A model generated the notes under the pieces. It was not told the DNA's origin. It made no database searches and worked only from the letters and a program-made list of their open reading frames with translations. A DNA stretch of 64,000 nt from a virus: positions 177,649 through 241,648 of the IMG/VR virus record IMGVR_UViG_3300032516_000001, one strand, 5' to 3'. Position numbers and translations under genes: made by a program. Below, one piece after another: positions 2,438 to 57,708 of this stretch. Each line of letters opens with the position of its first letter. The first letter of the stretch is position 1.

Positions 2438-2445
2438 TTTATCAC

Positions 2446-3627: not shown

Positions 3628-3628
3628 T

Positions 3629-4921: not shown

Positions 4922-4938
4922 CGCATGGCCTTCCATCT

Positions 4939-5685: not shown

Positions 5686-5699
5686 AGTCTACTATCCAA

Positions 5700-6788: not shown

Positions 6789-6809
6789 GTGATTACTATA
6801 CTATACGAA

Positions 6810-7502: not shown

Positions 7503-7506
7503 GGAA

Positions 7507-8226: not shown

Positions 8227-8234
8227 ATGGCTAC

Positions 8235-25000: not shown

Positions 25001-28000
25001 CCAGTTACGCCTGGTGACCCCTGTGGACCAGTTGCGCCTGTAACTCCGGTAACGCCCGGCGACCCTTGTGGGCCCGTTGCCCCAGTAACTCCATCAGGTC
25101 CTGTTGCGCCTGTAACCCCTGGTGATCCTTGTGAACCGGTAGCACCAGTGACGCCTGGTGATCCTTGCGGACCCGTGGGACCTGTTGCTCCGGTAGCCCC
25201 GTCAGGTCCAGTAGCTCCCGTAACACCAGGACTTCCCTGAGGACCTGTGGCTCCTGTAACTCCATCAGGCCCTGTAGCACCAGTGACGCCTGGTGATCCT
25301 TGTGGACCAGTAGCCCCTGTAACTCCATCAGGTCCAGTCGCGCCAGTGACACCAGGACTCCCTTGCGGTCCGGTTGCTCCTGTTACTCCGTCTGGACCAG
25401 TGGCTCCCGTTACTCCTGGTGAACCCTGTGGACCAGTAGCTCCGGTAACGCCGGGTGATCCTTGGGGGCCAGTTGGTCCAGTGGCTCCTGTTACTCCAGG
25501 ACTTCCCTGTGGCCCAGTTGCTCCTGTAACACCATCAGGTCCTGTTACTCCAGTAGCACCAGGACTCCCTTGCGGTCCGGTGGCACCAGTTGCACCGGGA
25601 GATCCTTGCGGACCAGTAGCACCCGTAACTCCGTCAGGACCAGTAGCACCAGTAACCCCTGGGGATCCCTGTGGCCCTGTAGCTCCTGTAACACCAGTAA
25701 TGCCTGGTGAACCCTGCGGGCCAGTAGCCCCTGTGACACCCGGAGAACCTTGAGGACCAGTGGCTCCTGTTACTCCATCAGGCCCCGTAACCCCTGGTGA
25801 TCCTTGAAGGCCTGTAGCACCATCAGGTCCTGTAGCGCCCGTAACACCAGGAGAACCCTGTGACCCTGTCGCACCAGTAACGCCTGGCGATCCTTGTGGA
25901 CCGGTAGCACCAGTTACTCCATCTGGTCCTGTAGCTCCAGTTACTCCGTCAGATCCAGTCGCACCTTGCGGACCGGTGGCGCCCGTCGCGCCTGGGGATC
26001 CTTGTGGACCAGTAGCACCAGTTGCTCCATCGGGGCCAGTAGCACCGGTTACTCCGGGAGATCCTTGTGGACCAGTTGCGCCATTTGGTCCTGTAGCACC
26101 CGTGATCCCGGGTGATCCTTGAGGCCCTGTCGCACCAGTGACTCCAGGAGATCCTTGTGGACCAGTAGCTCCTGTTACTCCGTCAATACCTGTCGCGCCT
26201 TGTGGACCGGTAGCTCCTGTGACCCCATCCGGACCGGTGGCCCCGGTTGCTCCCTGTGGGCCGGTTGGACCCGTTGCTCCAGTTATTCCCGGAGACCCTT
26301 GTGGTCCTGTAAATCCAGTTACTCCAGGACTTCCTTGATCACCCTGAGGGCCAGTAGCACCAGTTGCGCCCTGCGGACCGGTAGCACCTGTTGCTCCGGT
26401 TACGCCATCAACACCCGTTGCACCCTGCGGACCAGTGGCTCCGGTAACCCCGGTTATGCCTGGGGACCCCTGATCACCTTGAGACCCAGTAACACCAGTT
26501 ACACCAGGGCTGCCCTGATCACCCTGAGGACCAGTTGCACCAGTGACCCCGGTTATACCTGGTGATCCTTGATCTCCCTGCGGACCTGTCGCCCCAGTTA
26601 CACCCGTTACGCCCGGAGACCCTTGATCTCCTTGCGGACCAGTGGGTCCAGTAGCACCAGTGACGCCTGTTATTCCGGGGCTACCTTGCTCCCCTTGCGG
26701 ACCCGTAGCACCGGTAGCACCAGTAACTCCCGGACTTCCTTGCGGGCCCGTAACTCCCGTTACACCAGGCGACCCTTGGGGACCAGTAACGCCCGTCGAA
26801 CCCTGTGGTCCTGTAGCCCCCGTAACACCATCTGATCCGGTAGCTCCAGTTACACCATCAGAACCGGTAGCGCCTTGAGGCCCTGTCGCTCCAGTTATGC
26901 CCGGGGGTCCCTGAGGGCCTGTGGGACCAGTCGCCCCTTGTGGACCTGTGGCGCCGGTTACACCGTCGACACCCGTGGCGCCCTGCGGACCGGTAGCACC
27001 TGTAATTCCAGGACTACCCTGCGGACCAGTCGCTCCGGTTACTCCATCGACGCCAGTGGCGCCTTGTGGACCGGTCGCTCCGGTTACTCCATCAACACCT
27101 GTCGCGCCTTGAGGACCGGTTGCTCCAGTAACCCCATCAGGGCCAGTGACTCCGGGTGACCCTTGTGGACCAGTAGCTCCTGTAACTCCAGTTACACCAG
27201 GACTTCCCTGAGGTCCGGTAGTACCAGTAACCCCGTTAGGACCAGTCGCACCAGTTACGCCATCAACACCTGTTGCACCTTGTGGACCTGTTGCGCCGGT
27301 TGCTCCGTCAGGACCAGTCGCTCCTGTAACTCCAGGCGATCCCTGTGGGCCAGTAGCGCCCTGCGGACCGGTTGGTCCTGTTGCACCAGTTACACCTGGT
27401 GACCCCTGCGGACCGGTTGGTCCTGTTGCTCCAGTTACACCATCGGGACCTGTTGCCCCGGTGGCGCCTTGTGGCCCGGTAGCTCCAGTGACACCATCAA
27501 GTCCGGTGGCGCCTTGTGGCCCGGTAGCTCCAGTAACGCCAGGTGACCCCTGCGGCCCCGTTGCACCGTCAGGACCCGTAACTCCTGTTACACCAGGGGA
27601 TCCCTGTGGGCCTGTTGCTCCTGTAACTCCAGGACTACCCTGTGGGCCCGTAGCACCAGTAACACCTTGAAGCCCCGTAGCACCAGTAACACCGTTTGGT
27701 CCTGTGGCTCCAGTTACACCAGGAGATCCTTGAGGTCCCGTGGCGCCGGTTACTCCGTCTGGACCAGTCGCACCTGTAACCCCGGGTGATCCCTGCGGGC
27801 CAGTGGAACCAGTAGCACCGTTAGAACCAGTAGCTCCTGTTACTCCATCAAGTCCGGTAGCACCTTGAGGTCCAGTTGGTCCGGTAGCGCCTGTGACACC
27901 ATCAGGCCCAGTAACACCAGTTACACCGGGTGACCCCTGTGGACCAGTGGCGCCGGTTACTCCAGGACTTCCTTGCGGACCAGTGGCACCAGTTACACCC

Positions 28001-31000
28001 TGAGGCCCGGTAGCCCCGGTTACACCATCGGGACCAGTAACGCCTGGAGAACCCTGTGGGCCTGTCGCACCTGTAACACCTGGCGATCCCTGTGGACCAG
28101 TGGTTCCTGTAACCCCAGGCGATCCCTGTGGACCTGTAGCTCCAGTAACGCCATCGACTCCAGTTGCGCCCTGTGGGCCGGTCGGTCCGGTGGCTCCTGT
28201 CGCGCCATCAGGACCTGTCGCCCCAGTGACACCGGGTGAACCTTGAGCACCAGTTGATCCTGTTACACCTGGTGATCCTTGCGGACCTGTTGCGCCAGTG
28301 ACTCCATCTACGCCCGTTGCGCCTCGAGGCCCGGTCGCACCAGTAGCACCATCTATACCAGTGGCACCTTGTGATCCAGTCGCTCCCGTTACACCATCGA
28401 TCCCGGTCGCGCCTTGCGGACCAGTGGCTCCCGTAACACCTGGAGAACCTTGTGAACCCGTAGCTCCGGTTGCACCATCGGGACCCGTAGCACCGGTAAC
28501 ACCAGGAGATCCCTGTGATCCAGTTGCCCCTGTGACACCGGTTACTCCGTCAATACCAGTTGCGCCTTGCGGACCAGTGGCACCAGTTACTCCATCAGGA
28601 CCGGTGGCACCGGTAACGCCGTCAACGCCCGTCGCGCCTTGAGGACCAGTCGGTCCGGTGACACCAGTTACGCCGTCAATGCCCGTCGCGCCTTGCGGGC
28701 CGGTGGCTCCAGTAACCCCAGTTATTCCAGGACTTCCTTGAGGCCCTGTGGTTCCAGTTACTCCAGGCGATCCCTGTGGACCAGTAGCACCAGTGACCCC
28801 ATCGGGTCCAGTAGCACCGGTAACGCCTGGAGAACCCTGTGGTCCAGTCGCTCCCGTAACTCCATTAAGACCAGTAGCGCCTTGTGGGCCCGTAGCACCG
28901 GTAACACCTGGAGACCCTTGCGGACCCGTTGCGCCCGTGACGCCATCTGGTCCAGTAACACCCGTAACTCCAGGAGATCCCTGGGAACCAGTAGCACCGG
29001 TCACTCCGTCTACGCCGGTAGCACCTTGCGGACCAGTTGGCCCCGTAGCACCGGTAACACCATCAGGTCCAGTGGCTCCCGTTACTCCAGTGGCGCCCTG
29101 AGAACCCGTAGCACCGGTAACACCAGGGCTGCCTTGCGGACCAGTGGCGCCAGTGGCGCCGTCCGGACCCGTTGCTCCTGTAACACCGTCAGGTCCTGTT
29201 GCGCCAGTGACTCCAGGCGATCCTTGTGGACCGGTAATGCCGGTTACACCGGGGCTTCCTTGATCACCCTGCGGTCCGGTAGCACCGGTTACACCTGGTG
29301 AGCCTTGTGGACCAGTAGCACCCGTTACTCCGTCAGGACCTGTAAATCCTGTGACTCCGGGGCTTCCCTGCGGACCGGTTGCTCCAGTTACACCGTTGAC
29401 ACCAGTTGCGCCCTGCGGACCAGTAGCGCCAGTGGCTCCATCAGGACCGGTAGCACCAGTTACTCCAGGTGATCCCTGCGGACCAGTTGCTCCTGTAACA
29501 CCGGTTACCCCAGGACTTCCCTGTGGTCCGGTTGCGCCAGTAATCCCATCAATACCCGTAGCGCCTTGGGGGCCAGTCGCACCTGTAACTCCGTCAGGAC
29601 CTGTGGCTCCGGTTACGCCCGGTGACCCCTGCGGACCAGTAGCTCCTGTTGCTCCATCCGGACCGGTGGCCCCTGTGACCCCATCAGGCCCCGTAGCACC
29701 AGTGACACCTGGAGAACCTTGTGATCCAGTCGCTCCAGTTGCCCCATCTGGTCCTGTCGCACCAGTTACGCCGTCAATTCCGGTCGCACCTTGTGGACCT
29801 GTTGTCCCAGTAACCCCATCAGGTCCCGTAGCTCCAGTAACTCCGGGTGATCCTTGAGGACCAGTGGCTCCTGTTGCGCCGTCTGGTCCAGTAGCACCGG
29901 TAACCCCCGGGGATCCCTGCGGACCAGTAGCACCGGTTACTCCATCAGGCCCAGTAGCGCCAGTAACGCCGTCAATTCCAGTGGCGCCCCGTGGACCAGT
30001 AGCACCGGTTACTCCATCAACACCTGTAGCACCCCGGGGGCCGGTCGCTCCTGTAGTTCCATCAGGACCTGTAGCACCGGTAACCCCGGGTGAACCTTGT
30101 GGACCGGTTGCTCCTGTAGTCCCATCGGGACCAGTAGCGCCAGTTACTCCATCAGGACCAGTAGCACCAGTAGCGCCGTCAGGGCCGGTAGCCCCTGTGA
30201 CTCCCGGAGACCCTTGCGGACCTGTAGCACCGGTAACCCCGTCAATGCCCGTAGCGCCTTGTGGGCCCGTAGCACCGGTAACTCCATCAGAACCGGTAGC
30301 ACCTCGGGGTCCTGTCGCTCCAATTACACCATCAGGGCCGGTTGCACCAGTTACTCCGGGAGACCCTTGGGGGCCAGTCGGCCCTGTCGCCCCAGTTACT
30401 CCATCAACACCCGTCGCACCTTGTGGGCCTGTTGCCCCAGTAGCGCCATCAGGACCAGTGGCACCAGTGACTCCTGGACTTCCCTGCGGACCCGTAGCAC
30501 CAGTTGCACCGTCAGGTCCCGTAGCACCAGTTGCACCGTCAGGTCCCGTAGCACCTGTAACGCCTGGTGAACCCTGCGGACCCGTTGCGCCAGTAACACC
30601 GTCGATACCAGTCGCACCCTGCGGCCCAATGGGACCGGTGGCTCCTGTGACACCATCTATGCCAGTCGCACCCCGAGGTCCTGTAGCACCAGTAACACCA
30701 TCGATCCCGGTCGCACCTTGAGGACCGGTGGGTCCGGTAGCGCCAGTTACTCCGTCTGGTCCAGTTGCGCCAGTAACTCCTGGCGATCCTTGCGGACCGG
30801 TGGCACCAGTAAGGCCGTCAGGTCCTGTGGCTCCAGTTACACCAGGTGATCCTTGCGGACCAGTGGGGCCAGTTGCCCCAGTTACTCCGTCATGACCAGT
30901 TGCGCCAGTAACCCCAGGTGAACCTTGAGGTCCTGTGGCGCCAGTTACTCCATCAATTCCGGTGACGCCTTGCGGACCTGTCGTCCCAGTTACACCCGGA

Positions 31001-33918
31001 GAACCCTGCGGGCCTGTTGCACCGGTTGCACCATCAGGCCCGGTTGCTCCTGTTACTCCTGGAGATCCCTGGGGACCAGTTGGTCCAGTGGCACCAGTAA
31101 CTCCATCAATACCCGTCGCGCCTTGCGGACCAGTAGCACCGGTTACTCCGTCGGGTCCAATAGCCCCTTGCGGACCGGTCGTTCCTGTTACTCCATCAGG
31201 TCCTGTGGCACCAGTAACTCCGGGTGATCCTTGGGGACCGGTAGCGCCAGTGACTCCAGGTGATCCTTGAGGGCCAGTAGCACCGGTTACTCCGTCGGGC
31301 CCCGTAGCACCTTGTGGACCAGTTGCTCCTGTAACACCATCAGGACCTGTGGCGCCGGTTACTCCCGGAGATCCTTGTGGACCGGTCGCGCCTGTTACTC
31401 CATCAGGCCCTGTTGCTCCCGTAACCCCAGGCGATCCCTGTGGACCAGTAGCACCAGTGACCCCATCGGGTCCAGTAGCACCGGTAATACCAGGTGATCC
31501 TTGATTCCCTTGTGGGCCAGTCGCTCCCGTAACTCCCGGTGAACCTTGTGGACCTGTAACACCAGTAACGCCTGGTGATCCTTGATCTCCTTGTTGCCCT
31601 GTAGGACCGACTGGTCCCGTAGAACCAGTGCCGACACCCGGTGGTCCTTGTGGCCCAGTTGCTCCGGTGACTCCTGGTGAACCCTGATCACCTTGGGGAC
31701 CTGTAGCGCCAACAATTCCTGGTGATCCTTGATCTCCTTGGGAACCCGTAGGACCGGTAGCACCCGTTACGCCAGTGATTCCTGGTGAACCTTGAAGTCC
31801 AGTAACTCCTGGCGAGCCTTGGTCACCCTGTGGTCCAGTAGGCCCGGTAGCCCCAGTGACTCCTTGTGGCCCAGTTGCTCCTGTTGGTCCAACAGGCCCT
31901 GTAGAACCAGTTCCAACTCCTTGCGGCCCTTGGGGACCTGTGGCACCAGTAACACCCGGTGGCCCTTGATCTCCTTGAAGACCAGTAACCCCGGGCAATC
32001 CCTGATCTCCCTGTGGACCAGTAGGTCCGGTAGATCCAGTAACTCCGGGTGATCCTTGTTCTCCCTGTGGACCTGTAGGGCCAGTTACTCCTGGCGATCC
32101 TTGCGGTCCGGTAACGCCAGGCGATCCTTGTATTCCTTGAGGACCAGTAACTCCTGGCGATCCCTGTGGACCAGTTGTTCCTTGCGGTCCAGTAGGTCCA
32201 GTTGGACCAGTAGCTCCTTGATGCCCTACGGGTCCAGGTAACCCAGTAGCTCCTCTAGGACCAGGAACGCCTTGTACACCCTGAGGACCGGTCGGTCCCG
32301 TCGAACCGATAGGTCCAGTTGGACCGGTAGCTCCTGTTATCCCAGGAGATCCTTGTGTTCCCTGAGGCCCTGTAGCTCCTTGCGGCCCTGTGGGACCTGT
32401 GGCTCCTGTAACTCCTTGGAGTCCTGTAAATCCAGGAGACCCTTGAGTTCCTTGTGGACCTGTCGAACCAGTTACACCAGGTGATCCTTGAACGCCTTGT
32501 AACCCAGTCGCACCAGTGACACCGGGTGATCCTTGAATTCCTTGTGGTCCAGTAATGCCCTGCAGTCCTATAGAACCAGTTGGACCAGTTGCGCCGGTAA
32601 CACCAGGTGATCCTTGAATTCCTTGTAATCCAGTAACGCCCTGGACGCCGGTAGACCCTTGAGGTCCAGTAACGCCTGTAATACCTTGTGGACCTGTTGG
32701 ACCGGTAGCTCCCTGAGGTCCTGTTGGACCGGTAGCTCCCTGAGGTCCTGTTGGACCTGTAACCCCTCGCGGGCCATTATCCCCCTGAGGACCAGTGGCT
32801 CCTTGTGGACCTGTGGGTCCGGTTGGACCAGTCGATCCAGTTACTCCCTGTGGACCTGTAACCCCCTGTGGACCTGTAACTCCTTGTGGTCCGATATCCC
32901 CTTGTGGACCTGTGGGGCCGGTCGGACCCTGAATACCGGCTGGACCGGTTACTCCTTGCGCTCCCGTGGCCCCGAGAGGGCCTTGAACACCAGTTGCCCC
33001 CTGAGGACCCGTTACCCCTGGAGAACCCTGTGGACCTGTCGTCCCAGGGCTTCCTTGGGGTCCTGTAACCCCAGTAGCTCCACGTAATCCGGTAGCTCCC
33101 TGAGGCCCAGTCGGGCCAGTATCTCCTTGATGTCCTATGGGTCCTGGTAATCCAGTAGCTCCCCTTGGTCCAGGAATGCCCTGCACTCCTTGGGGACCTG
33201 TTGGGCCTGTGGCCCCTGTTGGACCAGTGGCTCCTGTGGGACCAGGAAGTCCAGTGGCCCCTCTAGGCCCAGTTATGCCTGGACCGGTTACTCCTTGGGG
33301 ACCAGTTGGACCAGTGGCTCCTGTTACCCCAGGAGATCCTTGGATACCTTGAATGCCTGCGGGCCCGATAGCTCCTGTTGGACCAGTGACACCAGTGATT
33401 CCATGTGCCCCGGTCGGCCCGATAGACCCTGTTGAACCAACGGGACCAATTGGACCAGTGGCGCCTGTGATACCAGGTGATCCTTGTGCACCGGTAGCTC
33501 CGGTAACCCCTGGAGATCCTATTATGCCTTGGGGACCAGTAGCTCCCTGTGGTCCTATAGCTCCCGTAGTTCCAATAGGACCGGTTGGACCTGTAACCCC
33601 TTGTATGCCTGTTAGACCAACTGGTCCTGTAGGACCAATTGGCCCAGTAACACCAGGGCTACCTTGGATACCCTGCGGGCCAATTGGCCCGATAGATCCA
33701 GTAGCTCCTGCCGGTCCCGTTAATCCAACCGGACCTGTTAAACCAGGACTTCCCTGAATACCCTGTGGACCTGTAGCCCCGGCAGTGCCTGCAGAACCAG
33801 TGGGCCCAATCGGACCAGTGACCCCCTGCGGACCAGTTGGACCTGTCGGCCCTGGCGGTCCAGTTGCTCCTGTCGCGGATCTCAGTCCGCGTGGGTTTCC
33901 ACAATTCTGCTGGGACAT
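22036..33918 (-). CDS. Giant collagen-like fibre protein (3,960 residues)
   Basis: An 11.9-kb gene. After a short head ([17 protein letters not shown]), nearly the whole chain is perfect Gly-X-Y triplets, roughly 1,190 of them. The usual units are [12 protein letters not shown] and GATGPDGVT, with Thr dominating the Y position and Pro frequent. A non-collagen beta-rich insert of about 250 residues lies near residues 3143-3394. The C-terminal ~125 residues (from about 3835) are globular and probably trimerise the chain. Collagen-like trimers occur in phage tail fibres, BclA of Bacillus spores and giant-virus fibrils (family knowledge). There is no prolyl hydroxylase nearby, and stability may instead come from Thr glycosylation. 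Unit lengths vary in multiples of nine bases, so recombination has kept the frame. Confidence 0.93.
23740..24490 (-). other. Non-collagenous insert domain inside the collagen-like protein
   Basis: About 250 residues of non-Gly-X-Y sequence between two collagen stretches of the giant fibre gene. It opens [17 protein letters not shown] and ends [14 protein letters not shown]. It is rich in Thr, Val and Ser with a predicted jelly-roll-like beta pattern. It may be a second trimerisation or receptor-binding head, a hinge, or a relic of fusion between two collagen genes. Boundaries are approximate. Confidence 0.8.
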
Positions 33919-35878: not shown

Positions 35879-36706
35879 TCATGCGTTTGCTGATTGAACA
35901 CGATGCTTCCTCATCCAATTTTTTCTCCATTCTCTCTTGCATATCAAGCATTCACGTGATCCTTTACTATTGATTACAGTATTTTCAACCGAGTACTCAT
36001 GACCTTTGGGACAATGAGTCTTGTTTTTATTCAATATAGAACCATGAGCGAGTCCACTCTGACATCTATTGCGAAATTCCGGATCTTTCCACAATTCAGC
36101 ATTTCTAGTTCGATACTCAGAGTCCCACATAAGCTTGGATGACGAAGAACGTTTTGCTTTAGATTCGGGTGTTGACTTTGTTACTTTTGAAGCTTCGATT
36201 ATGCGAGCCTTAATTGCTGGATCAGTAACATTATTTCGCAATATAGGAATCACTTTCTCACGAAATTCAGGATTCTGCCATAATTTCTTTGATTTCGCAG
36301 ATCTTTGTGCTGGAGTCAAAGAAGCATTTACTTTAGTCATGACCCGTAACATTTTTTCACGAAATTCGGGACGATCCCAAGGATTGTTATACGGATGCGG
36401 TGCATGGTCCCCACCTTTTGCTAAGTTAAACCCCTTATCCGGATCTCTTGTATTGAAATGATTGATCCATTTTTCCTCAGCAGCATTGGCTGCTTCTAAC
36501 GTATCGCAAATTTCTAGAATTCCATGAGTGAATGCATCTTTTCCATATTTACGGATAGCATTCCAAAAATGGGCACAACCTCTGCCCCGCTTGTGTTTTG
36601 CATTCGCTATATGCTGATTCCAACGCTTCATCATCGTTAATTTGGTTAACCCGATGTAACGACGGCCGGAATGTATATGCGAATAAATCGTCCAGTGAAG
36701 TCCCAT
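35879..36706 (-). CDS. GIY-YIG homing endonuclease, copy A
   Basis: 275 residues. GIY-YIG nuclease domain at 1-95 (WTIYSHIHSGRRYIGLT, MKRWNQHI, EEKWINHF, GFNLAKGG) with the conserved Tyr, Arg, Glu and Asn. Residues ~105-210 carry repeats of the type WQNPEFREKVI, a DNA-contact module. The C-terminus is a Cys/His finger (HCPKGHEYS...CLICKREW). Free-standing between a DUF5659 gene and virion genes; two further copies are at 42052 and 47326. A mobile genetic element, not needed for virion assembly. Confidence 0.87.
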   Translation of the reverse strand: MGLHWTIYSHIHSGRRYIGLTKLTMMKRWNQHIANAKHKRGRGCAHFWNAIRKYGKDAFTHGILEICDTLEAANAAEEKWINHFNTRDPDKGFNLAKGGDHAPHPYNNPWDRPEFREKMLRVMTKVNASLTPAQRSAKSKKLWQNPEFREKVIPILRNNVTDPAIKARIIEASKVTKSTPESKAKRSSSSKLMWDSEYRTRNAELWKDPEFRNRCQSGLAHGSILNKNKTHCPKGHEYSVENTVINSKGSRECLICKREWRKNWMRKHRVQSANA

Positions 36707-39073: not shown

Positions 39074-39754
39074 TTACAAACCCAACGGGTTATTCCGAAG
39101 GGTGAAAGTGGCATTCATCTCAGTACCACCACCACCATTCTCTCCTCTAACAAATATTTGAGTCACTGATGTTGTGCGTTGTTCCATAGTTTTAAATATG
39201 GTGGTTACCGGTTGAATACCGAACTCGGCCCCAAATCTATCATAAGCTACATACAAATTATTCCCCCCATCATTAGATATTTGGAAGTCATTGCATTGCA
39301 TAGGAAGCTGGATTTCGAGAGATGCAGTTATATCAGCTCCTGCAGGAACTGTTCCGTGTAATACAATAGCACGGAACGGAACTGGGTTATATGGCATAAT
39401 TAAATGCATAGCTTCTGCCGTACCCGGCGCACCAGAAGCTAATACCGGTGTCACTTGAATGAAGAATGGCACACTATCTGCTACCGCTGGAACAGCAATA
39501 GTGTACATATCAGGGTCAAATACAAATCTGCATACTCCCCTATGCTGACTACCAGGGACAGGGACATCCACAGACCTGTAGGTAGCAGTATCCAATACTT
39601 GCAATCCCCCATTGGGGACTGTTTCAAATAAAGCGAATGCGGTATCGAAATTAACAGCAGCCGCGAATTCAAACCCAACTACACCGTCCCGAAGTCGAAT
39701 ACTGAGATCAACTAAATTGAGCCTACGCCTAGTTACAGAAATCGATCTTGGCAT
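39074..39754 (-). CDS. Virion-type hypothetical protein
   Basis: 226 residues, beta-rich, start MPRSISVTRRRLNLVDLSIR. Features such as GVCRFVFDPDMY and LEIQLPMQCNDFQISNDGGNNLYVAYD suggest a structural beta-sandwich protein of the tail module. No enzyme motif, no membrane segment. First of the run of virion proteins after the zinc-ribbon gene. Confidence 0.62.
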   Translation of the reverse strand: MPRSISVTRRRLNLVDLSIRLRDGVVGFEFAAAVNFDTAFALFETVPNGGLQVLDTATYRSVDVPVPGSQHRGVCRFVFDPDMYTIAVPAVADSVPFFIQVTPVLASGAPGTAEAMHLIMPYNPVPFRAIVLHGTVPAGADITASLEIQLPMQCNDFQISNDGGNNLYVAYDRFGAEFGIQPVTTIFKTMEQRTTSVTQIFVRGENGGGGTEMNATFTLRNNPLGL

Positions 39755-39782: not shown

Positions 39783-40190
39783 CTATATGATTTTAGTAGC
39801 TCTTTCTTCGGCAATTTTAGAATCATAGGACGCCGCTTTCTCTGATCCGACATCCTTAGTGGCCATTTCTTTGGCTTCTGTCCAATCCGATGCTTCATTC
39901 CCTTTATAATTTGGAATGGCTTTAGTTTTAATATTTCCGTACCTATTCTTTTGTCTGCGGCTCGCATCATGACTAGCTTTTATACGCTGGGCCTGAATAC
40001 GACCACCTTTAGATGGCCATGATCCAGTTGGACCATCTATAAGAATAAACTCTATACCCTTAGGATTAAATTTATATATACATTTAGCCCCACATTTAAC
40101 ACATTTGGGCTCAAATTCTTTAAATTTATCTACTGAACAAACTTCTTCTTGTACAGCACCACATTTAGTACACGCGAAATCATACCTCAT
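39783..40190 (-). CDS. FmdB-type zinc-ribbon protein
   Basis: 135 residues from the ATG at 40190 (MRYDFACTKCG), 8 bp after the upstream stop; a longer frame to 40232 lies inside the upstream gene. Two CxxC pairs (CTKC and CVKC, about residues 7-30) resemble the FmdB regulatory ribbon, followed by a basic, Lys/Arg-rich region typical of small head-associated phage proteins. Likely nucleic-acid or protein contact; exact role unknown. Confidence 0.67.
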   Translation of the reverse strand: MRYDFACTKCGAVQEEVCSVDKFKEFEPKCVKCGAKCIYKFNPKGIEFILIDGPTGSWPSKGGRIQAQRIKASHDASRRQKNRYGNIKTKAIPNYKGNEASDWTEAKEMATKDVGSEKAASYDSKIAEERATKII

Positions 40191-40198
40191 GTTATACG

Positions 40199-41563
40199 TT
40201 ACTTTTCTTCTTCCTCCTCCGGTTCTTCCCATTCTATATCTTCATCAGTAATTTCTTCAGGTTTGCCTTTAACTTTAACTTTAGGCTCAGGCTCAGATTC
40301 CCAGTCTATATCTTCATCGGTAATGCCCTGGGATTCAGCTTCTTTAGATTCGTCTAAATGCCCCTCCCAGTGCTTCTCTTCATCTTCAGACTCAGCAGAA
40401 TCTTTGTCCCAGTCTATATCTTCTTCGGTAATTTCTTCCCATTTAATCTCTGGGGTTTCCTCTTCTTCTTTCTCTTCTTCCTCGACCTTCTCCGCTTTTT
40501 CAGCCTCCGCTTCGATCCCCTCTATTTCTTCCGGATCTTCTATTTCTTCCCACTCGACATCGACATCATCGGCGTCTTCTGCCTGCTCTAACGGAATTTG
40601 AACGACGCCCTCGAGTTTATCCCAATTATCATCAACCTTCTTCAATACCTCTTCTTCATCTAAATCAGCATTCTCTGCAGCAATTTCCTTCGTAAAAGAA
40701 TCTAATCTGGTAGTAACAGCATATGCATGCTTACATAACCAGTATTTACGTTCAGGGTCTCTAATGTCTGGGGGAGATGCGGTCCCATGCGGTTCTCCTA
40801 ATAAATACCCGTTTTTCTTGGCATGATATTCAGGACCATTCCATTGCCAAAATGGGCAATCACAGGTTATGGCGACATGGTGCAAATCTGAAAGTGACGC
40901 TTTAACTATATGGGGAGCTTTCTTATTGCTATTAACTGAGAATGTGTAGACTCTATTTCTTTTATCAAATGAAACGAATTTAACATTACATATTTCAGCT
41001 TTCTCACGAATTTTGGCTGGGGTGTGAGTTTCTAATTCATCCGATTTTAAAGCCAAACGGACAATCATGACGTGCGGAATAACGGATGAATGTCGTACTG
41101 GCTTCTCCTCTGTTCTGTACGGATACTTCCAGTATTGAGTCATGTCGATATCGGTTGGGTATGATGTATCAGTCGGATTTTGAATATTTTCATCGAATAA
41201 ATATTCCTGATGATGAGTCATACTATCAGCACCATCAATATCAAAGATAGACCCTGGATCAGATGATGGAACCGTTGGCTCAACATCATCATAAGTGAAT
41301 GTTTTAGTCCCGAACCAGTCCGCCTCTTCAGTTTGTCCAGACGGAGTTTCATCTTCAGCAACTCTGGTTGAAGCAATTCTTGAAGCTATTTGACCAACAT
41401 TCGATTCCATTTCTACGGTTACTGGTATAACAAATAATGGACGTAGATGCGACGGTATCGCACTACAGAAACTCAAAACATCCGGATATATGTCTTGATC
41501 CTGCCAAGCATAATAAGCAGCATCCGATAAAATAAAGCCACGAATACCATCATCTTTAGACAT
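40199..41563 (-). CDS. SWIM-finger protein with acidic 'ITDEDIDWE' tail repeats
   Basis: 454 residues. A SWIM-type zinc finger is visible: CDC at 234-236 and CKH at 277-279 (C-x-C...C-x-H), usually a DNA- or protein-binding module. The last ~130 residues are extremely acidic and contain a repeated nonapeptide in three clear versions (EITEEDIDWD, GITDEDIDWE, EITDEDIEWE) plus a looser VEWEEIEDPEE. An N-terminal helix VGQIASRIASTRVAEDE matches a motif recurring in other proteins of this window. Possible roles include DNA mimicry, scaffold or packaging partner; no family identified. Confidence 0.66.
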   Translation of the reverse strand: MSKDDGIRGFILSDAAYYAWQDQDIYPDVLSFCSAIPSHLRPLFVIPVTVEMESNVGQIASRIASTRVAEDETPSGQTEEADWFGTKTFTYDDVEPTVPSSDPGSIFDIDGADSMTHHQEYLFDENIQNPTDTSYPTDIDMTQYWKYPYRTEEKPVRHSSVIPHVMIVRLALKSDELETHTPAKIREKAEICNVKFVSFDKRNRVYTFSVNSNKKAPHIVKASLSDLHHVAITCDCPFWQWNGPEYHAKKNGYLLGEPHGTASPPDIRDPERKYWLCKHAYAVTTRLDSFTKEIAAENADLDEEEVLKKVDDNWDKLEGVVQIPLEQAEDADDVDVEWEEIEDPEEIEGIEAEAEKAEKVEEEEKEEEETPEIKWEEITEEDIDWDKDSAESEDEEKHWEGHLDESKEAESQGITDEDIDWESEPEPKVKVKGKPEEITDEDIEWEEPEEEEEK

Positions 41564-41653: not shown

Positions 41654-42019
41654 TCAGTCATCTACTTCAACTCCCTCTGTCATAGGGTTCCCAGTTCGAC
41701 GTGGGATCTTTAACCTGATATCCTCGAGAACCCTTTCTAATTCATCAACTTTTTCCGGACGTAACAATTGTCTCAGTTCCTCTTGATCAATTTTATCTAT
41801 TACCATAGCAGAGGCATTTAAAGAATTCTCAAGTTTGGCTAATAAATTTGGAGCCCCGTATATAATGTCGCCAGCAATCGCATAAAGATGATCCTTATGC
41901 GTGCTGGCGTTCACCAATTCAATTGCACGAATTATATGTCTTTTTAATTCTTCACAATATAATCTCGCATCTGATATTTCTTCTTGAAGACACGCAGTGG
42001 CACCGGCAGTTTTATCCAC
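41654..42019 (-). CDS. Helical hypothetical protein
   Basis: 121 residues, GTG start. Highly helical with two amphipathic segments (ISDARLYCEELKRHIIRAIEL and EELRQLLRPEKVDELERVL). No known domain. The 90 bp between it and the SWIM-finger gene hold no evident gene or hairpin. Start codon choice is uncertain since no good Shine-Dalgarno is visible. Confidence 0.5.
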   Translation of the reverse strand: MDKTAGATACLQEEISDARLYCEELKRHIIRAIELVNASTHKDHLYAIAGDIIYGAPNLLAKLENSLNASAMVIDKIDQEELRQLLRPEKVDELERVLEDIRLKIPRRTGNPMTEGVEVDD

Positions 42020-42051: not shown

Positions 42052-42912
42052 TTAATATTTCTTCAACCTCTTCATTAGAAAATATTCTTTCAGTCGATCC
42101 CTGATCTTTGCACGAACCTCAGGACTGCGTGTTTTTCCTTTTAACCCTTTTGATATATTAGCTCGATGTTCAGCACTGAATGGTTTCTTTGACTTTCCCT
42201 TGGTAGATGCTGAAATTTTGGCTCGATGTTCAGCGCTAAGTTTCTTTCCTCTACATCTATCTCCTATTTTAACTCGATTCTCATGGCTTATGATTTTCCC
42301 TTTATTGGCGTTCGATAATTTCATCTTAACTTCAGGTCTTGACTGTATTTCCTTCGATATATCAGACATCTTAGTGCGAAATCCAGGTCGTTTCCATAAT
42401 TCTTTAGATGCTATTGAATTCCTGGCTTTTATAATCTCTCGATATCCCGGCTTCTCCCACATATCTTTAGATATTTTAGAAGCTTTAGCTCTAAGGCTCG
42501 GATCCAAGTATGAGTTTCGAGTTGATGCGATCACCTTTTCTCGATATTCAGAGTTTTGCCACAATTTTCTAACAATTTCAGATCTTTGAATTCTAGATAC
42601 TGACGGTGCGTATTCGCCACCCTTCGTTAAATTGAATCCTCTATCCGGATTTCTTGAGTCATAAAATTTAATCCACTTAACCTCAGCAATTCCGGCTGAC
42701 TCTAATGTATCACAAATTTCTAATATTTTATGAGTAAATGCATCTTTTCCATATTTACGAATAGCATTAGGAAAATGCCATCGGCCGTCTTTTGAACTTT
42801 TAGCAGCATAAATATGATTCTTCCACCTCTTCTCCATTGTCTGAGAAGTCAGACCGATATAACGCCGACCAGAATCAATATGTGTATGACAATAGATCGT
42901 CCAATGCTTCAC
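42052..42912 (-). CDS. GIY-YIG homing endonuclease, copy B
   Basis: 286 residues, GTG start preceded by AGGACCG, an arrangement shared with copy C at 47326. GIY-YIG domain 1-95 (WTIYCHTHIDSGRRYIGLTS, EKRWKNHI, EVKWIKFY, GFNLTKGG). Then DNA-binding repeats (WQNSEYREKVI) and two NUMOD3-like motifs (LSAEHRAKISASTKGK, FSAEHRANISKGLKGK). It lacks the C-terminal Cys finger of copies A and C, so the DNA-recognition tail differs. Free-standing mobile gene. Confidence 0.87.
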   Translation of the reverse strand: MKHWTIYCHTHIDSGRRYIGLTSQTMEKRWKNHIYAAKSSKDGRWHFPNAIRKYGKDAFTHKILEICDTLESAGIAEVKWIKFYDSRNPDRGFNLTKGGEYAPSVSRIQRSEIVRKLWQNSEYREKVIASTRNSYLDPSLRAKASKISKDMWEKPGYREIIKARNSIASKELWKRPGFRTKMSDISKEIQSRPEVKMKLSNANKGKIISHENRVKIGDRCRGKKLSAEHRAKISASTKGKSKKPFSAEHRANISKGLKGKTRSPEVRAKIRDRLKEYFLMKRLKKY

Positions 42913-43976: not shown

Positions 43977-45965
43977 ATGACATCCAAACTACGCAAACTA
44001 GTGGTCGTTACTATCGCTTTGGCAGTCATGGCCATTTCAGCATATATGTACGCCCCGATTTGGATCAGGCACAAAATTAAAGAGAAAGCTGATACGTACG
44101 GCATCCAAATAGACGTAGGAAAAGTAGAATTGCATTTCAATAGGGTAGTATTATCAGACATCCCAATATCGTCATCATATTTCCCAGGTCAGAAACTATC
44201 CATATCAACGGCAACAGTATATTTCGGATTGTCTGGGATACATCAAATAGTGATATCTGGTGGCGATTTAAAGATAACGGGTATTTTTTCCGAAATTAAG
44301 AAACAATTCTCTGAATGGGGACATCGATCTACCTCCGCAAATACTTCAGAACATAAATCAAAATTTGATATCAAGTTTGACTCGATAAATGCAACATGGC
44401 AGTCTCCATATAATGGTATTAACCAAATATCAGTTGATGGAATCAACAACTCAAATTCCAATATCAATGCGAATGCTATAACAATAGATACTGCGGCAGG
44501 GTCTACACACATAAGCCATGTAGAATATGAGAATGAGTCCAAAACCCTATCTATTAATACAATCAAATCTGAGGTTAACGACCTTGGACCAATAAAGCTT
44601 CTTCAATCGCAGAATGAACCACAAAACAGATCGACTCTTGGAAATGATGAAAATGCGTTATATAGAATCCATGTAACAAGCTATGAATTAAAAGCAATGG
44701 ATCATGAAATTATAGCGTCTGATGTGATTTTACGCATGCACCCGTTTTCGATTCAAGCTCGAGAGGCTAATGTAGACAATAAGATTAAGATGATTAGTCC
44801 ATGGGTTAGTATACAAAAATTGCCGCAAGGATTGTCGTCTATAGTATCCATTGAGTCTATCACAACATCGAATCCAACAATCACTGATGAAACAATCATT
44901 ACGAAACCAATAGCATTAAGTTTACGGATAATAGATCAATATGCCGAAATCGAAGCTAGTATATACAAAACTCCATTTAAGTTAGGTATTCACAAAGATG
45001 ATAATGTAATCCGATTCGATTTGATTATGGAGAAGACGCCTTGTCAGGATATTTTGGATTCCATCCCACAAGGAGTGAAGTCAGTTATTAATGAAATGAA
45101 ATTAGACGGAAGTTTGTCTTGGGAAGTGCGTGGTCTTGTCGATTTGATCCCCGAGACGCAACTAAGAATGGACCCTGAGATCGAATTAAAACTGAGTAAT
45201 TCATGTAAAATCACCAAAATTCCCGATGAACTGTCAGTGACTAAATTGCGGAAACCATTCAAACGCATAGTATTAGATCAAACCAAAACCCCGTTTGAAA
45301 TAACTAACGGACCAGGAACAGAAGGATGGGTTCCAAATGGGCTCGTATCCCAATTTGTAGCTTTATCATTCAGAACCATGGAAGATCCGGGCTTCCTCGC
45401 TCATCATGGATTCGATATTCAGGCAATAGAAAATTCCATTAAAGAAAACATCAAGTCTAAGAAGTTCTTACGAGGAGCCAGCACTATCACGATGCAACTG
45501 GCCAAAAACTTATGGCTCAATAGAAGTAAAACTCTTGCCAGAAAAATTCAAGAAGCTTTCCTCACAATGTATCTAGAGCAAGCCCTGAACAAAGACGAAA
45601 TATTAGAATTATATATGAACGTGGTTGAATTTGGACCCAAAATTTATGGGATCGGAAAGGCCTCGAGATACTATTTCAATAAATATCCGACTGATTTAAC
45701 CCTAGGACAATCGTTATTTCTAGCCTCTGTTCTCCCTAATCCTAAAGTTCAGTTCTTTGATGCTAACGGGGATCTCAATCCGAAACGAGCCGATTATCTG
45801 AAAAGAGTTATGAAAGCGATGATGGATAGAAAACTCATCTCGCAAGACGAATATGATGATGGGGTAAAAGAAGTCTTGAAATTTAAACGATCATCTGTCA
45901 CAACTGACGAAATAGTAGAGATTCAACCAGACCCAGATCCATGGCAAGTATCAGTCACTCAATAA
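43977..45965 (+). CDS. Membrane-anchored peptidoglycan glycosyltransferase (GT51) with AsmA-like N-terminus
   Basis: 662 residues. A single N-terminal membrane segment (about 6-24, LVVVTIALAVMAISAYMYA) precedes a ~400-residue beta-rich AsmA-like region (IDVGKVELHFNRVVLSDIPI). It ends in a GT51 domain (about 445-630). All family motifs are visible: EDPGFLAHHGFD with catalytic Glu469, RGASTITMQLAKNLWL at ~499, and RKIQEAFLTMYLEQALNKDEI leading into YMNVVEFG. GT51 polymerises lipid II into glycan strands in the periplasm. No transpeptidase domain is present, as in MtgA-type enzymes. Similar AsmA-GT51 fusions are known from Gram-negative bacteria, so acquisition from a host is likely. A GT51 gene is very unusual in a phage. 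Confidence 0.9.
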   Translation: MTSKLRKLVVVTIALAVMAISAYMYAPIWIRHKIKEKADTYGIQIDVGKVELHFNRVVLSDIPISSSYFPGQKLSISTATVYFGLSGIHQIVISGGDLKITGIFSEIKKQFSEWGHRSTSANTSEHKSKFDIKFDSINATWQSPYNGINQISVDGINNSNSNINANAITIDTAAGSTHISHVEYENESKTLSINTIKSEVNDLGPIKLLQSQNEPQNRSTLGNDENALYRIHVTSYELKAMDHEIIASDVILRMHPFSIQAREANVDNKIKMISPWVSIQKLPQGLSSIVSIESITTSNPTITDETIITKPIALSLRIIDQYAEIEASIYKTPFKLGIHKDDNVIRFDLIMEKTPCQDILDSIPQGVKSVINEMKLDGSLSWEVRGLVDLIPETQLRMDPEIELKLSNSCKITKIPDELSVTKLRKPFKRIVLDQTKTPFEITNGPGTEGWVPNGLVSQFVALSFRTMEDPGFLAHHGFDIQAIENSIKENIKSKKFLRGASTITMQLAKNLWLNRSKTLARKIQEAFLTMYLEQALNKDEILELYMNVVEFGPKIYGIGKASRYYFNKYPTDLTLGQSLFLASVLPNPKVQFFDANGDLNPKRADYLKRVMKAMMDRKLISQDEYDDGVKEVLKFKRSSVTTDEIVEIQPDPDPWQVSVTQ

Positions 45966-47325: not shown

Positions 47326-48252
47326 GTGGAACAAAAACACTGGACAATCTACTGTCATATTCATATCGATTCTAGTCGTCGTTATATTGGTTTAACCTCC
47401 CAAACAATAGAAAAACGATGGAAAAATCATATATACGCCGCCAAATCTTCCAAAAATGGGAAATGGCATTTCCCTAACGCTATCCAGAAATATGGCCCTG
47501 AGGCATTTTCTCACGAAATACTTGAAGTATGCGACACATTAGAAACAGCTAAATTATCGGAAATTAAATGGATTAAATTTTATAACACCAGAGATCCGGG
47601 AAAAGGATTTAATTCAACGAAAGGTGGCGACTACATACCACCAACACCTAAAATTCAAAGAACTGAAATCTCTAAAAGATTATGGCAAGACCCGGAATTT
47701 CGCTCCAAAATGTTAGCCGCTACCTGGAATAGACCAGGTTATCGTCAAAAGGTGCTCGAGTCATTAAAGAGAACAAATGCCACACCGGAGTCCAAGGAAA
47801 ACCATTCCGTGGCCTCAAAAACCAAATGGCAGGATCCTAATTTTCGAATCAGGAACGCTGAATCTTATAAAACTGCTTATTTAAACCCGATAAATAGAAA
47901 TAAACGCATTGAAACTATGAAAAAAACATTCGCTACACCAGAGTCAAAATCAAAACGCTCCAAATCTTCAAAACTGGTGTGGCAAAATCCTGAACTTCGA
48001 GCTAAAGATGCCGAACGATGGAAGGATCCAGTTTATCGGGCTAAATGTCAACACGGACTTATACGAGGAACTGAACTGAACAAAAGAAAAACCCACTGTC
48101 CCCATGGACATGAATATTCAATTAAAAATACTTGGTTCGATAAAAAAGGACATAGATTCTGTCTAACATGTAAACATTCTATAGTTAATGAATGTATGCG
48201 TAAACTTAGATTAAAACGTAAAATGGAACAAGTTGTTACTCAAAATTACTGA
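47326..48252 (+). CDS. GIY-YIG homing endonuclease, copy C
   Basis: 308 residues on the plus strand, GTG start preceded by AGGACCGCC as in copy B. GIY-YIG domain (HWTIYCHIHIDSSRRYIGLT, EKRWKNHI, EIKWIKFY, GFNSTKGG), then WQDPEFRSKM-type DNA-contact repeats and a C-terminal Cys/His finger (HCPHGHEYSIKN...FCLTCKH) as in copy A. The only copy on the plus strand. It is a chimera-like sibling: N-terminal half closest to B, C-terminal finger like A. Confidence 0.87.
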   Translation: MEQKHWTIYCHIHIDSSRRYIGLTSQTIEKRWKNHIYAAKSSKNGKWHFPNAIQKYGPEAFSHEILEVCDTLETAKLSEIKWIKFYNTRDPGKGFNSTKGGDYIPPTPKIQRTEISKRLWQDPEFRSKMLAATWNRPGYRQKVLESLKRTNATPESKENHSVASKTKWQDPNFRIRNAESYKTAYLNPINRNKRIETMKKTFATPESKSKRSKSSKLVWQNPELRAKDAERWKDPVYRAKCQHGLIRGTELNKRKTHCPHGHEYSIKNTWFDKKGHRFCLTCKHSIVNECMRKLRLKRKMEQVVTQNY

Positions 48253-54291: not shown

Positions 54292-56607
54292 TCAATACCC
54301 AAAAATATGAATAAACTGCGACCGATGTAAATGTTTCACTGTCCCGAATTTATATTGAGTTCTATGATGAAGACCAGCCTTTTCGAGCGAAAACATGAAC
54401 GGTTCTATAAATGAATATTGATGAGTATCGAAAATATGTAAAGCCAGCACTCCATTATTACTCAAAACCTTAGCGGATAATGCCGCAAAGGGTTCAACAA
54501 AATTCTTTTGCCAATCAGCGAATGAATCGGTAGGTACTATGCCGTTATAATTTTCCACATTATAATATGGAGGCCCTGCAAGAATCATATCAAAATGTTC
54601 ATCTGTCTTCTGCATATATTGTAAAGCATCAATGCATAAAGCCTGCATTTTACACACGCCTAATGATTGAGAATCCTCAAGTATTTTTCTGATTGCATTA
54701 ATTGTCAACTCTTGAAGATCCGTGCCAACATAATTTTTTACGTATTTATTGAGGGCGCAAGCTAAAGCCCTGCCACACCAACCAGCAAACGGGTCGAATA
54801 CAGATTTCGGTCTATATGTATTTAGTAAAGCTGCGGCACCGGATGGTCGAAAATGACCTGGTGCCGAAACCATCTCCATGATTCTACGAGCCAATAATTT
54901 GTTAGTAAGTGCCTGATCTCTAGATAATATGCTCGTAACAGCTTTCCGGACAATGACCTCATCCTTCCAAGCCATAACAAATGATGGCTGTCTGTAATGA
55001 TTGGCAGAAAATCGATGAGGACAAATGGCATCCAAGTAGGTTAATCCATCTTGAATAAAAGGTAGTACCCCATCCTTCGGAAGACATGTTTTCAATCGTT
55101 CCTGAAGATCACCAAGATATTCCAATATTGGTTGATCCAACATTCTTTGAGGAGAGTGTGAATGAACAACGAAATTCACTATTTCATCAAGGTATGTTTG
55201 TTGTTTTTCATCCGGCATCTCTCTAAATTTCGAGGTTGGAAACTTGGTCGATAAAGGATCATCAGCATAAGCTGTTGCACCTCTGGATACCGGCGGGAGC
55301 TTCCTTGCCATTCGTGGGTGTATGTACGGCTGTACTATCTCAAAAAATCGCGCACGAGCAGGGGTCCCACGAACTTTGAGCAGTCTGATGTTCTTCCGTT
55401 TTACATGATAGAAGTTAACATCAAACCTACATGTCAAAGCTTCACAAATCGCGTCATAATCCGCAGCCGGAAAATACATTGCGATGGATGGGAATCCAGA
55501 ATCGTATGTTCCATCATCCATATACCAGATTGCCAGGGATAATTCACTCAAATTTTCAAAAATATTAATATTTGGATTCTTACACCCATCAGCCCCAAAT
55601 TTTTTTCTAAGTGATGGGTCATAAAATCTGGGATACCATTCACAAAGAGTATCAGTTCGAATCGATGTATATGAGATGAAATCGAATAATCGCCCATCAA
55701 CATATTTGCGCTGTTGGTGGATAATTGGTTGTAGACATTTTACTTGATCGGCACTCCATTCAGTATATTCTCTATCTGCTATCTTATGACCAACTCTGAA
55801 ATAAGCTGCCTTCCCCATAGCCACTGGAACTAGACATCCGTCTCCCAACAAATGACCAATCATTATATCAATAACCCTCTGAGATAAATCGATTGGTAAA
55901 TGCAGAAGAGAAGATCTCTCAATATCAGATTTACGAAATCTAGTCTTGATGGTAGAAGGACGAACACCATATCGTTTAGCAAGTTCTTGATAAGTAAGTC
56001 TATTCACAATGGCTTCTTTAATTTTCTCGCTGTCTAATGTTTCAATACTTAACTTACCTGATGCTACTCGTCTCGCATCTGATGAAATTGTTGATAAACC
56101 CAATTTCATCCTAAGGTATCTGACCTGACTAGCTAGTAGTCCAGCATCACGAGCAATCTGTACATCAGATTTAATCCCGTCATATAAAGATTTAACTTTG
56201 ATCAAGGCATGATCTAGATACTGGAATTTGGCGTTTTGGTGCACTCCATTGGCTATGATCAATTTTTCAAGCATATCATAAGAATATTTAGCACTGCATC
56301 GTGAACAGTATCTGCGAGAGCAAGCCAAAGAGGTATCAAGAAACTCAGAACCGCATAGATAACAATGTTTATGACGTCTTGGGTTTCTTTGTGCTAAATC
56401 TGGAACCACGTCATGTTTGGATACGATCGCGTTAATTCTGCAAGTGAGACAGATTTTTGAAGTCACCCGGGGAGTTTCATCATAGAACTGCAGACCACAA
56501 GAACATTGTTTGACTCTACCCCGATGTTTACGCCGATCATAAAATCGGTTTCTAAACTCTTCTGGAACGTCAACTCCGTCTATTTGCTCAATGTATATCT
56601 TTTTCAT
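54292..56607 (-). CDS. LAGLIDADG endonuclease–DNA methyltransferase fusion
   Basis: 771 residues. N-terminus: two Cys-rich fingers (CSCG...CLTC about residues 35-60, CYLCG...CSRC about 82-105) and helix-turn-helix-like stretches (LTYQELAKRYGVRPSTIKT). Middle (~245-430): LAGLIDADG endonuclease with both motifs, IMIGHLLGDGCL and LAIWYMDDGTY. C-terminal ~300 residues: a DNA methyltransferase with SAM block VFDPFAGWCGRALACAL and catalytic AGPPYY, of the N4-cytosine/N6-adenine type. Such fusions are rare. The gene sits in the head module directly downstream of the capsid gene, as mobile genes often do, with its own promoter. Methylation could protect its own cleavage site (inference). Confidence 0.85.
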   Translation of the reverse strand: MKKIYIEQIDGVDVPEEFRNRFYDRRKHRGRVKQCSCGLQFYDETPRVTSKICLTCRINAIVSKHDVVPDLAQRNPRRHKHCYLCGSEFLDTSLACSRRYCSRCSAKYSYDMLEKLIIANGVHQNAKFQYLDHALIKVKSLYDGIKSDVQIARDAGLLASQVRYLRMKLGLSTISSDARRVASGKLSIETLDSEKIKEAIVNRLTYQELAKRYGVRPSTIKTRFRKSDIERSSLLHLPIDLSQRVIDIMIGHLLGDGCLVPVAMGKAAYFRVGHKIADREYTEWSADQVKCLQPIIHQQRKYVDGRLFDFISYTSIRTDTLCEWYPRFYDPSLRKKFGADGCKNPNINIFENLSELSLAIWYMDDGTYDSGFPSIAMYFPAADYDAICEALTCRFDVNFYHVKRKNIRLLKVRGTPARARFFEIVQPYIHPRMARKLPPVSRGATAYADDPLSTKFPTSKFREMPDEKQQTYLDEIVNFVVHSHSPQRMLDQPILEYLGDLQERLKTCLPKDGVLPFIQDGLTYLDAICPHRFSANHYRQPSFVMAWKDEVIVRKAVTSILSRDQALTNKLLARRIMEMVSAPGHFRPSGAAALLNTYRPKSVFDPFAGWCGRALACALNKYVKNYVGTDLQELTINAIRKILEDSQSLGVCKMQALCIDALQYMQKTDEHFDMILAGPPYYNVENYNGIVPTDSFADWQKNFVEPFAALSAKVLSNNGVLALHIFDTHQYSFIEPFMFSLEKAGLHHRTQYKFGTVKHLHRSQFIHIFGY

Positions 56608-56811: not shown

Positions 56812-57708
56812 TTAACGGGTTACGATAAGGCGCACGAGACCACGCGGGTTGTACGCGCCAATCCCGAGGTTCTCGAACATCGAGAAACCGATGGTCCGCT
56901 CTTCCGGATTATCGGCAGAAAGAACGGTCAGCTCAGTCCTAACCGGGATCCGGCCGAAGTGCTCTGGCTCGCAGCAAACGTAAACAACGCCTGCGGGGAC
57001 AAGACGCGACACGATGAACTGGGCGTTCCAGCCCGTAGCCATCAGGCCGGTCTTCCACAGCGTTGCCTGGCTCTCGATGTCGAGCACGTCGCGACCGAAT
57101 TTCCGGATGTCGGCATAATCGACCGCGTTCATGTAGACTCGAGCCACCCGAAGGTCATGACGCTCGATCTCGGCAAACGCGTCCGCGAGGACGGCCGGCG
57201 AAATCGGGGCCACAACCGGGATGTCCGGGTTCGTGCCCGCGGGGAGCGAGTCGAATCCGGCGATGGCAATGGCATCCATGATGGTGAAGACACGATCGTC
57301 TTCAGCCGCCTGGATCTGCGCCTTGCCAAGGTCCTGCATACGCTTCAGGAGGTCGTACCGACGCTCCTTGATCTGAGTTAACGGAGCCTTGAGAAGCGCC
57401 GCTATCTCAAAAAGGGGGAAGATCACACGGCGAGGTTTCATGATCGCCGTGATGGAAGTTCCCTCTTCACCGATCACGTATGCAGTGACGTCTGGATCCT
57501 TGTCGTACAGAGGCAGGGCACCATCGGGAAGCTGTTCGACCAAGAAGGTCTTACGGCCTACCGATGAGTAGTCACGCCGCTCGCGCAAGGGCTGAATCAT
57601 CGAGGCGGCCAGGCGCTTACGCCCTGCCGACGTCCCGATAAACTTGTCAACAATCTGCTCCTTGATTGTGTTGTCCACAACCTGGACGCCGAAATTATTG
57701 GTAGGCAT
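56812..57708 (-). CDS. Major capsid protein (HK97-fold)
   Basis: 298 residues. Pattern of the large-phage capsid family: a charged N-arm with RRDYSSVGRKTFLVEQLPDG, a long central helix region (LTQIKERRYDLLKRMQDLGKAQIQ) and the C-terminal 'PEHFGRIPVRTELTVL' strand followed by GFSMFENLGIGAYNPRGLV. Good AGAGG Shine-Dalgarno and strong hairpins downstream fit high expression. Position next to scaffold and a minor head gene supports it. Its C-terminal end is mirrored in the small protein at 50876-51136. Base composition is much GC-richer than the inteins nearby. Confidence 0.82.
   Translation of the reverse strand: MPTNNFGVQVVDNTIKEQIVDKFIGTSAGRKRLAASMIQPLRERRDYSSVGRKTFLVEQLPDGALPLYDKDPDVTAYVIGEEGTSITAIMKPRRVIFPLFEIAALLKAPLTQIKERRYDLLKRMQDLGKAQIQAAEDDRVFTIMDAIAIAGFDSLPAGTNPDIPVVAPISPAVLADAFAEIERHDLRVARVYMNAVDYADIRKFGRDVLDIESQATLWKTGLMATGWNAQFIVSRLVPAGVVYVCCEPEHFGRIPVRTELTVLSADNPEERTIGFSMFENLGIGAYNPRGLVRLIVTR

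Follow-up and report, generated by a model that had tools for sequence, protein, structure and literature searches.

A conserved huge-phage gene encodes a protein with AsmA-like and GT51 peptidoglycan glycosyltransferase domains and has a myxobacterial sister group

The window analyzed here, a stretch of 64 kb of DNA, forms the end of a 241,648-bp IMG/VR record, and on its plus strand at positions 43977-45965 lies an ORF with an ATG start and without an internal stop that encodes a protein of 662 residues. Based on the ORF itself, Pfam, matches to solved structures, AlphaFold2 (AF2) modeling and Foldseek, this is an AsmA-like/GT51 peptidoglycan glycosyltransferase gene, whose product consists of an N-terminal transmembrane helix, a beta groove of the AsmA/chorein type and then a GT51 domain with full catalytic motifs. 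The transmembrane segment that a preliminary description had claimed is indeed present at residues 8-26 (43998-44054, +), as seen by hydropathy and in a modeled helix at residues 2-40. Hydropathy analysis also shows that K/R residues precede this segment, and by the positive-inside rule the N-terminus is therefore predicted to be cytoplasmic and the body of the protein is expected to face the periplasm. The AF2 model, calculated from a 51-sequence alignment (mean pLDDT 89.9, pTM 0.78), has the transmembrane helix, a long series of strands from about residue 43 to 450 and then the helical GT51 domain, and a second model, of a protein from the other phage group (see below), gave the same topology and the same fold matches. 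A Pfam legume-lectin match to the 662-residue protein (0.023) was below the cut-off and was disregarded, and a promoter scan around the gene gave fewer matches than in shuffled sequences and is uninformative.

The GT51 domain occupies residues 450-638 (45324-45890, +) by Pfam and Foldseek. Its match to Transgly (PF00912) covers residues 450-607 with E=3.9e-46 and a score of 157 bits, where the cut-off is 27, and among solved structures its nearest relatives are the GT domains of class A PBPs and of monofunctional enzymes (E down to 5e-27). The C-terminal part of the model matches the GT domain of Aquifex PBP1A with a TM score on the target of 0.83-0.85, and the lysozyme-like fold of GT51 is met by Foldseek matches to 3nb6, 3d3h and 2oqo (E about 1e-11 to 1e-10). 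Both catalytic glutamates are in place, E469 in motif 1 (EDPGFLAHHG, 45381-45410, +; consensus EDxxFxxHxG) and E526 in motif 3 (RKIQE, 45540-45554, +; consensus RKxxE), and these are accompanied by motif 4 (ELYMN, 45606-45620, +). Motifs 1 to 4 are kept in all 36 phage ORFs, and an alignment of 12 phage sequences is invariant at E469-D470, H476, G478, S502-T503, Q507, K510-N511, R522-K523, E526, E544, and Y546. Motif 2 reads GASTITMQ (45474-45497, +) rather than the usual QQ form, a common feature that does not define catalysis. The Q-to-M change runs through nearly the whole sub-family, including most of the bacterial homologues, and it is therefore a sub-family variation and neither decay nor loss of a catalytic glutamate. 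The preliminary description of a phage-encoded GT51 protein with an AsmA-like domain, intact motifs and a catalytic Glu469 thus held, with its numbering correct and with motif 2 in the MQ form; the support comes from the capsid context, PF00912 and a fold match for the AsmA part.

That fold match concerns residues 43-449 (44103-45323, +), the fast-evolving groove domain, which was assigned from AF2, Foldseek, dN/dS and the matches of a homologue. Pfam gave no match to an AsmA-clan profile in the N-domain of the phage proteins. The homologue from Flavobacterium is matched by DUF748 at E=1e-11, below the curated cut-off, and by AsmA at E=1.7e-4, both with sequence profiles. In structural searches the N-terminal part matches the bridge-like lipid-transfer protein LPD-3 (E=9e-11) and the N-terminal domain of Atg2 (probability 1.0), and AsmA-like proteins are predicted to have the same fold as LPD-3 and the Atg2 N-domain (PMC8593681). 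Both AF2 models meet the criterion of the AsmA superfamily fold, an N-terminal transmembrane helix followed by a chorein-like groove of repeating beta strands. Among predicted viral structures there were three matches at E <= 1e-3, all to giant-virus proteins and the best to a chorein-domain protein, and no GT51 relative was named among the 50 best matches. The hydrophobic alternation of the groove strands was not significant (p=0.19). A disulfide between Cys356 and Cys410 (region 45042-45206, +) is possible by inference, as both are invariant in the 12-phage alignment and their equivalents are invariant in A5 too. The groove probably holds lipid, either lipid II or phospholipid, or spaces the membrane from the wall, and its function is not shown.

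The GT51 gene sits 11 kb from the gene of the major head protein (56812-57708, -; phrog_2522, E=8e-46), which marks the record as phage and is 77% identical to that of the 485-kb uncultured huge phage LR745208 and 36% identical to that of Bacillus phage G. On its other side is a conserved divergent block that runs toward collagen-repeat fibre-like genes, beginning with a protein of 327 aa and unknown function that is also found in eight related GT51-holding phage loci (42925-43908, -) and continuing with proteins of 121 aa (41654-42019, -), 454 aa with a weak SWIM zinc-finger match (40199-41563, -), 149 aa (39783-40232, -), and 226 aa (39074-39754, -). In 18 distinct records with this block, GT51 is near it in 12 and missing in 6, and we therefore regard GT51 as an accessory slot at a conserved locus and not as a core gene. 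There was none in the 11 records (of 11) of the next MCP subclade; many of the records, with and without the block, are fragments. Of 12 loci with the gene, 11 have it on the opposite strand from the capsid gene. The preliminary description had raised the concern of a chimeric join; syntenic copies on contigs from independent metagenomes, where the gene occupies the same place, lead us to reject both an assembly chimera and host contamination. As its position near phage hallmark genes is conserved across these independent assemblies, it is a genuine phage gene.

Several other features of this phage should be noted. Two ORFs flanking the GT51 region (42052-42912 and 47326-48252) encode GIY-YIG endonucleases, making the region rich in mobile elements, and related GIY-YIG homing endonucleases are numerous across the record, including 35879-36706. 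A 771-aa ORF with a LAGLIDADG domain (54292-56607, -) adjoins the major head gene. The gene at 22036-33918 (-) encodes a 3960-aa protein with massive collagen triple-helix repeats, probably a giant fibre, and is a GC island (0.62 versus about 0.40 around it). A surface-glycan cassette at 1475-10715 (-) includes a nucleotide-sugar epimerase, a UDP-glucose dehydrogenase, several methyltransferases and glycosyltransferases. There is an actin-like protein of the Volactin family (PF25216, E=1.5e-65; L239:10042-11109, about 150042-151109 of the window's own record, -), and a probable endolysin, an M15 peptidase with a PG_binding_1 domain, at L086:15716-16546 (+). Near the same locus in relatives are a Mom-like DNA-modification protein and a LigT/Acb1-like protein, possibly anti-CBASS (L189:4861-6285 and L192:14993-15637). 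A search for Terminase_6N gave no match in the window's own record and is uninformative.

A capsid search of IMG/VR returned 456 relatives, of which 80 were kept, and PF00912 was found in 12 of 41 records of capsid relatives, with the same architecture wherever the ORF was complete. A search of IMG/VR with the single GT51 protein gave no match, the sequences being too divergent, and a profile search based on an alignment recovered 35 loci, and many of their contigs are 200-529 kb long. Including that of the window there are 36 phage ORFs of the AsmA-like/GT51 architecture, about 31 of them distinct and most with the same capsid family; phrog_2522 occurs in 14 of 19 further viral GT51 records and in none of 14 control genomes. 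For diverged pairs with unsaturated dS only, dN/dS is 0.075 and 0.13 in the GT51 domain versus 0.26 and 0.34 in the N-domain, showing that the former is under purifying selection and the latter is evolving fast. The two main phage groups are concordant between the GT51 and capsid trees. One carrier (L215, on the 426,960-bp record G027) has a group-A capsid but a group-B GT51, and two others (L196 and L213) have very different capsids. A Mantel test of GT51 against MCP distances gave r=0.17 (p=0.065) overall and r=0.50 within group A, pointing to a mixed vertical and horizontal history, which we read as mostly vertical descent with at least one exchange between phages.

A genome scan identified homologues with the same architecture in Myxococcota and Bacteroidota, and these bacterial loci (L103-L182), mostly with the MQ motif, are widespread in Polyangia and occur in many Bacteroidota. 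In a careful tree with PBP1A rows as outgroup, the 31 phage rows form one clade (bootstrap 99, SH-aLRT 91) that is sister to nine Polyangiaceae-type rows (98/89) and nested among Myxococcota. From this nesting we infer the direction of transfer, and the history appears to be one ancient acquisition by phages from a Polyangiaceae-related (Myxococcota) bacterium. Sampling for the tree by sequence patterns of the phage family is a source of bias; a scan of the Polyangia class, which includes Sorangium, used no such patterns and found GT51 matches in 59 of 59 genomes, mostly in long ORFs matched from about residue 345, and the cellular relative therefore looks like a housekeeping gene. A Sorangium cellulosum protein is 47% identical to the phage protein over residues 345-634. 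The phage major capsid protein, sought as evidence of a host, was not found in 379 Myxococcota genomes. The phage family points to Myxococcota as its likely hosts, now or in the past, although no host has been assigned to these huge phages and the host is unproven. The conserved huge-phage family and its myxobacterial sister group go beyond the preliminary description. The bacterial AsmA-like/GT51 family is known at the domain level and is apparently uncharacterized, in that we found no functional study.

Monofunctional GT51 enzymes work at the outer face of the inner membrane, where they link lipid II units to form glycan strands. We now put forward a hypothetical role in which the phage supplies the host with a wall polymerase that is active during infection. 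Anchored by its transmembrane helix in the inner membrane of the host, the protein would expose the GT51 domain to the periplasm and there polymerize host lipid II to glycan strands. Searches whose positive controls worked gave no transpeptidase (PF00905, PF03734) in 25 carriers, several of them fragments, so that crosslinking of the new strands would have to be left to host enzymes. The phage polymerase would keep up or raise wall synthesis after host expression has been shut down, and the host cell would thereby survive the long infection needed for a phage of 200-530 kb. In favor of wall support are the conserved locus near capsid genes, the housekeeping-like cellular relatives, the intact motifs and the low GT51 dN/dS; against it are the accessory nature of the gene, the absence of the capsid from Myxococcota genomes and the groove-strand alternation (p=0.19). 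That the enzyme is active and useful is our inference from purifying selection, an unbroken active site in all copies and exchange among phages, and the transfer between phage lineages seen in L215 suggests that the gene pays. We give wall support a probability of roughly 0.5, as the role is inferred and the activity, the time of expression and the host are unproven.

Wall maintenance, exclusion and sabotage make similar sequence predictions. The rival that survives best, and which remains possible, is superinfection exclusion or envelope remodeling, where an extra polymerase alters the wall and competing phages cannot penetrate or inject. The GT51 gene is accessory and exchangeable between phages, its island, with capsid genes on one side and fibre-like genes on the other, is variable, the phage also has the surface-glycan cassette, and the ways in which phages modify capsule and peptidoglycan to keep out rivals have been discussed (PMC7824862). 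However, purifying selection on GT51 resembles that on a housekeeping enzyme and not on an arms-race factor, although the N-domain evolves fast, and to our knowledge no exclusion system works through a GT51. We consider it unlikely that the role is wall sabotage, in which lipid II is diverted by a GT51 that has no crosslinking partner, and the resulting glycan stays uncrosslinked and is broken down by host enzymes, with precursor drain, a division block or an aid to lysis as the proposed outcome. The searches turned up no transpeptidase in the 662-aa protein or in any of the 25 carriers, as sabotage would have it, but the bacterial homologues are normal chromosomal genes with the same monofunctional architecture, so that the absence is inherited and not an adaptation, and the phage already has its probable endolysin. 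Repair at the injection site by a particle-borne protein that reseals the wall after DNA entry is very unlikely: the gene adjoins the block leading toward fibre-like genes, but it is on the strand opposite to the capsid gene in nearly all loci and an N-terminal inner-membrane anchor is ill-suited to a virion protein. Equally improbable is a lipid-transfer role in which it is the groove that does the work, supplying the growing envelope of an enlarged host with phospholipid or lipid-linked precursors, and the GT51 domain serves as a tether or polymerizing sink, since, although both phage models match bridge-like lipid-transfer folds and AsmA-like proteins have been proposed as phospholipid transporters (PMC8593681), it is the N-domain that is shorter and fast evolving in phages and GT51 that is conserved, and a hydrophobic lining of the groove is not shown. 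The roles listed in the preliminary description (injection-site repair, delay of lysis, wall thickening, burst timing) were guesses that the sequence ranks only weakly.

Returning to wall support, a bolder form of it is that a widespread huge-phage lineage builds host wall with a lipid II polymerase of its own to which a lipid-transfer groove is fused, and that this groove might deliver lipid II to the enzyme at a distance from the membrane; we regard this as clearly less likely than not. What is known of how phages act on peptidoglycan concerns, almost without exception, its degradation or inhibition. Lytic enzymes and surface modification are mentioned in jumbo-phage reviews and in the huge-phage paper, and 'peptidoglycan biosynthesis' is listed among the auxiliary genes of large phages with no polymerase named in the relevant passages (PMC10732071). 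The passages searched in the mostly open-access literature do not mention a phage GT51, and an earlier report cannot be excluded. The preliminary description had proposed a search of phage databases for GT51, and the outcome is a huge-phage family in IMG/VR and no genuine case among deposited phage genomes, where 56 records have a GT51 match. Some of these were checked by annotation, and the short, unannotated or chromosome-sized rest were judged by size and label. The annotations that were read point to cellular genes: mtgA of MaAM05, set among secDF, glyS, and fabI; the GT51 of MW462191, which follows closely on capsid and terminase genes and has fimbriae genes beside it; mgt of phiSabovST1, beside chromosomal recX; and pbpC of a Klebsiella record, with ndk and rlmN-type genes. 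We propose that the phage gene is a host-derived auxiliary gene whose peptidoglycan-making function, its activity unproven, is new for phages as far as can be checked. That about thirty distinct copies of a polymerase are conserved in huge phages and held under purifying selection implies that some phages gain from making wall, and raises the question of how giant phages prevent their host cells from breaking during a long infection, or shut out rivals at the envelope. Attention is drawn as well to a widespread, apparently uncharacterized bacterial enzyme in which a wall polymerase is combined with a lipid-transfer fold.

Among known systems, Bacillus phage G and the huge phage LR745208 (485 kb) have the same capsid family as the phage of the window, and no GT51 match was found in either record. 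MtgA (TIGR02070, monofunctional biosynthetic peptidoglycan transglycosylase) is likewise a monofunctional GT51 behind a single transmembrane helix, but it lacks the AsmA groove, and the phage protein does not meet the MtgA equivalog (152.9 bits versus a cut-off of 182.65). With class A PBPs such as PBP1A it has the GT51 fold in common but not the transpeptidase, as the protein ends after GT51 and neither it nor the record contains PF00905. TamB, YhdP, and YdbH and the eukaryotic Atg2 and LPD-3 have, as in the phage protein, an N-terminal anchor and then a chorein-like groove, but the phage groove is about 400 aa and fused to an enzyme, whereas in TamB, YhdP, and YdbH the stretch said to cross the periplasm is longer than 700 aa (PMC8593681). 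The AsmA-like/GT51 proteins of Polyangiaceae/Myxococcota and Bacteroidota have the same domain order (transmembrane helix, groove, GT51) and the MQ motif. These bacterial genes are chromosomal, and the Myxococcota homologues have longer N-domains, in ORFs mostly of 700-1000 aa, whereas the phage proteins fall in a clade apart and their grooves are shorter and diverged. What is new is the long retention by huge phages of an ordinary bacterial protein family.
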